Assembly: GCA_001644045.1 (NCBI GenBank)
Contig: LUUF01000084.1
Coordinates: 1-64,000, forward strand
Length of the DNA: 64,000 nucleotides
Reading direction: 5' to 3'
DNA from: Methylomonas methanica
Lineage (GTDB): Bacteria > Pseudomonadota > Gammaproteobacteria > Methylococcales > Methylomonadaceae
The notes under the pieces were generated by a model. The model saw only the letters and a list, made by a program, of their open reading frames with translations, had not been told where the DNA came from and made no database searches. This document shows positions 27,125-28,877 of the stretch, piece by piece; within the stretch, counting starts at the first letter, position 1; each line of letters opens with the position of its first letter. The translations under genes and the position numbers were made by a program.

Positions 27125-27231
27125 CTGAATAACAAGCTGCTGCCGCTTAAAGGATTGAGTTCGAATGAAGAATGATAAATTAAAGTTCGGTTATGTTTTC
27201 AAAGAGGTTTATTTGTTTACCTAGACGAAAA

Positions 27232-27252
27232 AAGCCGGCACTGGGCCGGCTT
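27232..27252 (-). terminator. Rho-independent terminator of the double-glycine peptide gene
   Basis: AAGCCGGC (27232-27239) and GCCGGCTT (27245-27252) form an 8-bp stem with a five-base loop. On the minus strand it is followed by a U-run. It lies just past the stop codon of the 70-residue peptide, showing that gene is a discrete transcript end. Confidence 0.85.
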
Positions 27253-27279: not shown

Positions 27280-27492
27280 TCAGAATAATCTGATTTCAGC
27301 AGGCGGCAATGGTTGGGGATTCAGGCTTACCGTGGATAGCTTGCTGACCGCACTGGTGAACAGATCAGGCAAAGGACCGGGCTTTGGTCCGAGCCAAGAA
27401 CCGGGATAAGGCGTTCCGCACCAACCGCCGGATACATTTTGCAGTTCTTCAGCATGCAGAACTCTGAAACTTTGATCTAATTGAGCGTTCAT
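27280..27492 (-). CDS. Orphan peptide precursor with double-glycine leader
   Basis: A 70-residue peptide. Residues 1-23 form a classic bacteriocin/RiPP-type leader with F9, L12, EEL at 15-17, V20 and a GG at 22-23 (LHAEELQNVSGG). The 47-residue core begins WCG, is rich in proline and glycine (PYPGSWLGPKPGPLP), has a single cysteine, and ends with LNPQPLPPAEIRLF. The start is set by AAGGAG eight bases upstream; the longer open frame to 27750 is ignored. A terminator follows the stop. No modifying enzyme or C39-peptidase exporter is in the window. Confidence 0.75.
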   Translation of the reverse strand: MNAQLDQSFRVLHAEELQNVSGGWCGTPYPGSWLGPKPGPLPDLFTSAVSKLSTVSLNPQPLPPAEIRLF

Positions 27493-27912
27493 TTGACTGG
27501 CTCCTTGTAAATATCGAAAAATTCCCACCCATAAACAGGTGGCTCCAAACCGCGAGTCGAACCGATCAGTCTTGAAACCAATCTTTAAAGCAGAACGATT
27601 CAACTTGCCATTGCTCGAGACCAGAAAGGTCCATTTTCTGTTCAGAGCCAGAAAGCAACGCATATTTCTCTCTGACCGGCGACGAACGACTAGCGATCTT
27701 GTAGCAAATCCCTGCGATCCGCCGGCATAATCACTGTACGGCTGCCGCACCGTTAAATCTGTGGAAAAATACCTACTGCCGCAGGCAATAGTCCCTAGCG
27801 CCTCAATTTCCCTGCTCTAACCACAATTTCGAAAGCTTTCGGTTCACCGAATAACATTGATACGATTACCCTGAAGCTGTGCGAGCGCCTAAAAACAAAC
27901 AGGAGAAAAATT
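27493..27912. other. Gap between two divergent small genes
   Basis: The 420 bases between the double-glycine peptide and the 90-residue secreted protein must hold both promoters. I see no clear -35/-10 pair, no sigma-54 element and no convincing coding frame. The frame open on the minus strand to 27750 lacks a ribosome site and protein-like composition. Confidence 0.45.
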
Positions 27913-28238: not shown

Positions 28239-28682
28239 CTACTGGTTTTCTTGGTGTAGGTGGGGGTTGGTTGAGCTGGTTAGGTGAGAAATCGAGTGTA
28301 ACCATTGGCGGGTTACGTCGGCGAAGCTGTCTATTATCGGAAGCCCGGCATTTACCCGGTCTTCGTTGATTTCGGCTAGCTGTCGAGCTGCTTTGATTTC
28401 TTTTCGTCCCAAGCTGGGGTCTAAACCATCCGCAATTTGCTGCCTGGCTTCTTCGGCCTTGCGTCTGGCGCTTTCTAGGGTCGTATCCGGATAGACGCCG
28501 AATGAAAGTTTTTTACGCTTCCCCTCGAAGGTAAAAATGAACCTCCATATCTTGGTACCGTTTTTACCGACTACGAGATTGAGGCCGCCGCCATCGTTTA
28601 TGAAGTAGTCTTTATCTTTCGGCTTTGCAGCCCTGTAGACCGTGTCTTTATTGATGTTTAGGGGCATAGTGTGTCCCTGCAT
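28239..28682 (-). pseudogene. Truncated tyrosine-type integrase (P4-like), N-terminal part only
   Basis: The 147-residue product has the arm-type DNA-binding domain of P4-family integrases (DYFINDGGGLNLVVGKNGTKIWRF, FEGKRKKLSFGVYPDTTLESARRKAEEARQQIADGLDPS). It ends in an unrelated tail after the SFADVTRQWL element. The core-binding and catalytic domains, with the R...HxxR...Y residues, are missing; intact enzymes are near 400 residues. It lies 110 bp past the tRNA-Leu gene, the usual integration target, so it is the remnant of an excised or decayed element. Confidence 0.85.
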
Positions 28683-28705
28683 TTCATTGCACTTCCCTGC
28701 ACAAT

Positions 28706-28741
28706 AAAAAACCCGCTAAGCCAGATAACTTGCGGGTTTTT
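28706..28741. terminator. Bidirectional terminator after tRNA-Leu
   Basis: AAAAACCCGC (28706-28715) pairs with GCGGGTTTTT (28732-28741) in a 10-bp stem. U-runs occur in both directions, so it ends the secG-tRNA-Leu transcript and shields it from the integrase remnant. Confidence 0.85.
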
Positions 28742-28780
28742 GCACTTCTTTGCACTTCTTTGCACTTCTTTGCACTTCCG
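28741..28780. repeat. Tandem 10-bp repeat TGCACTTCTT
   Basis: Three exact copies (28741-28750, 28751-28760, 28761-28770) and one imperfect copy (TGCACTTCCG, 28771-28780) lie between the terminator and the 3' end of tRNA-Leu. Related TGCACTTCC sequence recurs at 28689-28697 beside the integrase start. This could be a replication-slippage tract or part of an old attachment region. Confidence 0.75.
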
Positions 28781-28792
28781 TGCATCTTCAAA

Positions 28793-28877
28793 TGGTACCG
28801 ACGGGCGGACTTGAACCGCCACGACTTGCGTCACCACCCCCTCAAGATGGCGTGTCTACCAATTTCACCACGTCGGC
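28793..28877 (-). tRNA. leuU: tRNA-Leu (GAG)
   Basis: The 85-base gene folds as a class II leucine tRNA. It has a GCCGACG/CGTCGGT acceptor stem, a D arm (GTGGTGAAATTGGTAGACAC), an anticodon stem CCATC/GGTGG around TTGAGGG with anticodon GAG, a long variable arm, a GGTTCAAGTCC T arm, and encoded CCA. It follows secG on the same strand, as leuU follows secG in E. coli. A terminator follows at 28706-28741. Confidence 0.95.

Follow-up and report, generated by a model that had tools for sequence, protein, structure and literature searches.

The window, that is, the whole stretch of 64,000 nucleotides of Methylomonas methanica DNA analysed here (on contig C85 of the assembly), carries on its minus strand a small, solitary gene for a predicted precursor peptide with a double-glycine (GG) leader. 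The reading frame translates to MNAQLDQSFRVLHAEELQNVSGGWCGTPYPGSWLGPKPGPLPDLFTSAVSKLSTVSLNPQPLPPAEIRLF, 70 amino acids plus stop. The features of the locus are summarized in Table 1. A preliminary description of this DNA had reported a GG leader, a 47-residue Pro/Gly-rich core with one Cys, and a ribosome-binding site and terminator belonging to the gene itself; the translation and the comparison of orthologues bear this out. It had also called the LNPQPLPP motif C-terminal; the motif is present, but six residues, AEIRLF, come after it, which places it near the C-terminus and not at it.

Table 1. Features of the peptide locus (positions in the window)
Feature	Coordinates	Strand	Evidence
GG-leader precursor gene	27280..27492	-	Translation; nine orthologues, pN/pS 0.20 (all pairs, pooled)
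Leader, residues 1-23, ending VSGG	27424..27492	-	Sequence; TIGR01847 15.6 bits, cut-off 15.7
Predicted mature core, 47 residues, one Cys, Pro/Gly-rich	27283..27423	-	Sequence; pN/pS 0.16 for residues 24-56
LNPQPLPP motif, residues 57-64	27301..27324	-	Invariant in nine orthologues while pS is 0.56
Shine-Dalgarno AAGGAG, 8 nt before ATG	27501..27506	-	Intact in 8 of 9 orthologues
Intrinsic terminator-like stem GCCGGC/GCCGGC plus T-run	27225..27252	-	Kept in 9 of 9 orthologues
Small secreted-looking ORF, 90 aa	27913..28185		Adjoins the peptide gene in 5 of 9 genomes
Apparently truncated ORF	28239..28682	-	
tRNA-Leu(gag)	28793..28877	-	

The leader, MNAQLDQSFRVLHAEELQNVSGG, has its GG site after residue 23. 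GG leaders carry hydrophobic residues at positions -4, -7, -12 and -15, here V, L, L and F. The NCBIfam GG-leader model TIGR01847 narrowly misses the window copy and recognizes the G011/G031 orthologue at 16.9 bits. With Pfam Bacteriocin_IIc (PF10439) the peptide scores 12.4 bits, below the gathering cut-off of 27.1. No NHLP or Nif11 leader domain was found in it (NCBIfam up to E 10; Pfam), and no NCBIfam or Pfam family, RiPP models included, exceeded its cut-off. The Shine-Dalgarno sequence is altered to AGGGG in the orthologue of genome G013. The GCCGGC stem and the T's following it lie 3' of the stop codon in every orthologue; since the terminator scan of the window listed this stem for the plus strand only, it may serve both convergent genes.

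Downstream, a convergent gene of 280 codons and four further genes are common to all nine orthologous loci. None of these co-conserved genes looks like an immunity gene, a class described in PMC9746304 as difficult to recognise. The upstream side varies among most of the loci and has, apart from the peptide, no gene common to all nine; a small gene conserved alongside the peptide at every locus was not found. Three congeners (G005, G030, G034) have the 280-aa neighbour but nothing resembling the peptide in the 1.5 kb inspected. The 90-aa ORF of Table 1 lies next to the peptide gene in about half of its carriers. The tRNA-Leu gene and the truncated ORF, which we take to be integrase-like, occupy the region 28239-28877 on the side that varies between genomes, and this region is a likely integration site.

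The 70-residue frame is a real, conserved gene. A search of 200 relatives gave strong matches in nine genomes of the genus, the window's own included, out of 37; the eight other orthologues are 77-91% identical to the window copy. A chance ORF is ruled out by these orthologues and their pooled pN/pS. By part, the ratio is 0.46 for the leader, 0.16 for the core (residues 24-56) and 0.03 for LNPQPLPP, whose eight residues are identical throughout despite differing codons. The residues at the cleavage site are GG in eight orthologues and GA in G013, a replacement listed among the accepted leader variants in PMC9746304. The reading as a GG-leader precursor is thus genuine, with GG (or GA) and LNPQPLPP both kept in all nine orthologues. 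A weak but real relative occurs in G175, a genome of another family. In G006 (contig C15, 17505-17696; L038) lies a decayed second copy, whose leader is interrupted by a stop codon and whose tail is altered. Apart from these, the weak matches that were read had no GG leader combined with LNPQPLPP and were dismissed as chance, the exceptions being G031:C1 and G006:C18, which are pep1 genes of the operon described below. A plasmid search with the peptide returned one record, at E 8, with an unrelated gene.

The preliminary description had found no GG-peptidase or RiPP enzyme in the window and had named the peptide an orphan. The window indeed contains no C39 peptidase in a genome-wide search, but that search gave two matches elsewhere, on contigs C59 and C63, so the peptide is an orphan by position only and its likely exporter lies on another contig. 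On C59 an operon has the order pep1, pep2, Cys-rich protein, HlyD, C39 ABC transporter; pep1 (61 aa) and pep2 (91 aa), directly upstream in the operon, are both GG peptides. The C39 domain contains ECGLAC and a C41-H114-D130 triad with the 73/16 spacing of the CvaB triad, given as C32-H105-D121 in PMC9746304. The membrane fusion protein matches HlyD_3 at 60.7 bits (cut-off 22.2), and TolC is encoded in the genome (of 21 matches, two exceed the TIGR01844 cut-off). The genome therefore does encode a GG-peptidase, one that has kept the Cys/His/Asp spacing and is accompanied by HlyD. In the C39-like ABC protein of C63 a T replaces the catalytic Cys, and its gene lies beside one that we read as RTX-like.

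The Cys-rich gene (C59, 10440-10931; L036), which encodes the pattern CPSAQP...CxCxxC...C...C..CRWW...C..CPQ, had no Pfam or NCBIfam match over cut-off and served as the operon marker. Within the genus, 17 of the 37 genomes have it; it is also present in G175, and G135 gave one more match, a weak one. An order-wide search (310 genomes) added two weaker relatives in the genus g15, where inspection by eye of the upstream frames listed showed no GG peptide; a class-wide search found the own genome only, of 369. HlyD comes next after the marker in all 18 strong loci, that of G175 included, one being cut by a contig end, and a full C39-ABC gene is present in the four of the 18 that were read for it (L036, L047, L165, L166). 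At L036, L165 and L166, in three congeners, a small ORF resembling a membrane protein lies downstream of the C39-ABC gene and is a possible immunity or accessory gene.

Leader and tail both connect the window peptide with this operon. Its leader scored 25-59 against seven pep1 leaders (54 against the pep1 of its own genome, with 10 of 23 residues identical) and 2-31 against ten other GG leaders, a set chosen by hand within whose range two of the pep1 scores (25 and 31) fall. All nine peptide carriers have the operon marker (hypergeometric 2e-4); in the tree built from the marker gene they fall into a single clade (support 0.79), so the co-occurrence amounts to one event and 2e-4 is no valid probability of linkage. 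Eight of the 17 operon genomes are without the window peptide gene. The strongest link of peptide to exporter is found in G175, where the first operon gene encodes a GG peptide, MSKQIRMSGDLAPIAASDLEKVAGG..., ending in an LNPQPLPP region. The first residues of its core resemble those of pep1 (LIGPDQDLS.FPR), and the end, SKLDAVALNPQPLPPQAAIFGQ, resembles the SKLSTVSLNPQPLPPAEIRLF of the window peptide. Within the genus, the pep1 peptides of the operon are without LNPQPLPP. A Bradyrhizobium genome encodes two more GG peptides, ending FTS.L..VALNPQPLPP, so that GG and LNPQPLPP stand together in these two as well as in the divergent operon peptide of G175. The same genome has C39 genes, none of them seen next to an LNPQPLPP peptide, and no LNPQPLPP was found near the C39 operons of G938 (Bradyrhizobium) and G939 at L247 and L248.

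The preliminary description had suggested that LNPQPLPP recurs in small bacterial proteins; it does recur, and the proteins concerned are of widely differing size, not small ones alone. A search of 398 phylum genomes with the octamer written as a DNA pattern gave ten sites, and with the reversed pattern none; this is the support for the motif that bears a control. At nine of the ten the octamer lies in an open frame, in about six kinds of protein; the tenth codes LNPQPFPP or falls in a frame without LNPQPLPP. A looser search of the 200 relatives gave 33 sites against 10 for the control, and ten of the 33 are GG peptides (31 of 33 read). When the genomes of about 85,000 species were scanned, at least 116 stretches carried the pattern, and the octamer was in an open frame in 105 of the loci listed (107 frames in all). 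The pattern matches L001 and L002 were discarded as out of frame. The matches listed include 94 candidate proteins of at least 55 aa. Once the motif is masked these sort into at least 50 families, of which 39 have a single member. The claim for the motif is weakened in that the loci were selected by the motif, families were joined by single BLASTP links and some of the 94 frames are possibly not genes.

Among these 94 the motif lies no more than 30 residues from the C-terminus in 36 and no more than 40 from the N-terminus in 21. It directly follows a GG site (L059, L164), a lipobox-like Cys (L055, L070) or a signal peptide-like start (L054, L066), signal peptides and lipoboxes having been judged by eye, and is repeated in tandem in L052 and L114. 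It is also found in the tails of apparently cytosolic or membrane proteins, so a role in export would not be general. V[AS] precedes it in 26 of 120 occurrences among the matches listed. There are large LNPQPLPP families of about 147, 200 and 700 aa (L071, L085, L119, L216, L219 and others), some with FNPQPEPP-like repeats; for ten proteins of the large families, Pfam gave no match for eight, and Peptidase_M74 and DUF2189 for the other two. The pattern [ILV]I[IV]V[GS]G, picked after examples had been seen (L091, L098, L134, L136 and others), occurs in 4 of the 107 listed LNPQPLPP frames; the remaining frames of these loci, 1.07 million residues together, do not contain it. The strings LNPQPLPP, NPQPLPP and NPQPEPP had no match in the running text of the papers searched.

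The window peptide is probably trimmed and exported by proteins whose genes lie elsewhere in the genome. In this reading the CvaB-like ABC transporter of C59 would recognise the 23-residue leader with its C39 domain and cleave it behind GG; the 47-residue core would then pass out of the cell by way of the transporter, the associated HlyD protein and a channel of the TolC type. Export would take place in trans to the operon, which makes two further GG peptides. We regard both steps, cleavage by the C39 domain and TolC-dependent export in trans through the C59 proteins, as rather likely. Once outside, the peptide may work by means of a C-terminal module that is conserved, namely [F/L]xSxLxxV[AS]LNPQPLPP and the few residues behind it. 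We infer that it is most likely a signal, or a ligand for a conserved partner, in preference to a fast-diversifying bacteriocin, because its core is conserved, its LNPQPLPP tail is invariant, and neither a gene co-conserved on its upstream side nor an immunity gene was recognised.

A bacteriocin of the class II microcin type would be cleaved and exported in the same way and would kill related bacteria. A GG leader, a C39-ABC, HlyD and TolC are encoded in the genome, and the operon peptide pep2 has some likeness to Bacteriocin_IIc of Pfam (E 0.001), although its 19.4 bits fall short of the cut-off of 27.1. However, the peptide alone is co-conserved upstream in the nine loci, none of the conserved downstream genes resembles an immunity gene, and the secreted-looking ORF adjoins the peptide at five of the nine loci. 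Conservation is higher in the core than in the leader; the microcins described in PMC9746304 show the opposite, with variable cores and conserved signal sequences. The order of conservation and the want of a co-conserved immunity gene weaken this reading, and it is considered unlikely.

Modification of the core before export, perhaps helped by the Cys-rich operon protein, would make the peptide a RiPP. Relatives of the Cys-rich protein were found on nine plasmid records, from Nostoc to Streptomyces. Among the six examined, they adjoin Nif11/NHLP precursors in Nostoc and NHLP exporters in Spirosoma, the two cases beside NHLP/Nif11 RiPP genes, and one lies near a radical SAM gene in Polymorphobacter; those of Agrobacterium and Streptomyces, however, do not adjoin RiPP genes. 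The operon showed no recognisable modifying enzyme, the core has a single Cys, and RiPP models gave no match over cut-off, which leaves modification quite improbable. Least credence is given to a conserved small protein that is never exported and whose VSGG is coincidental. The distance of the gene from the exporter and the marginally missed TIGR01847 cut-off would fit, but GG or GA is kept at all nine loci, the leader resembles that of pep1, and LNPQPLPP stands on a GG peptide of the exporter operon in G175.

The preferred reading, a GG peptide exported in trans, has a close parallel in the class II microcins and CvaAB (colicin V), which share the GG/GA leader, the triad spacing of the C39-ABC, the HlyD-type partner and a TolC in the genome; the components found here (GG/GA precursor, C39 ABC with triad, membrane fusion protein, TolC) are among those given for class II microcins in PMC9746304. 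In contrast to that system, the window precursor does not adjoin its exporter, no immunity gene was found in the loci compared, and the peptide has a conserved Pro-rich core and the LNPQPLPP tail. GG signal peptides exported by peptidase-containing ABC transporters offer a second parallel, likewise with a C39 exporter in a Gram-negative and a presumably non-toxic peptide cargo; HetC of Nostoc is discussed as a signal exporter in PMC10986499. GG peptides with C39 exporters are thus already known (PMC9746304, PMC10986499). NHLP/Nif11 RiPP precursors have the same GG-ending leader, and relatives of the Cys-rich operon protein adjoin such genes in Nostoc and Spirosoma, but the window leader is short and without an NHLP or Nif11 domain, and no modifying enzyme was recognised.

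To our knowledge, GG peptides of Gram-negative bacteria outside the enterobacteria have been little described. Orphan precursors escape cluster-based mining; here the leader and the tail allowed a conserved orphan precursor to be linked to an exporter operon that lies on a different contig. LNPQPLPP itself may tentatively be seen as a linear motif that bacteria reuse widely and that has gone unrecognised, an address for docking, anchoring or processing. It would have been attached on separate occasions to lipoproteins, to proteins exported by Sec or Tat, to GG peptides and to the tails of further proteins; the window peptide would then be a free, exported carrier of it, a ligand for its reader. 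The motif recurs in at least 50 protein families among the matches listed and in no searched paper text, and the tail of the window peptide offers a testable handle on it.
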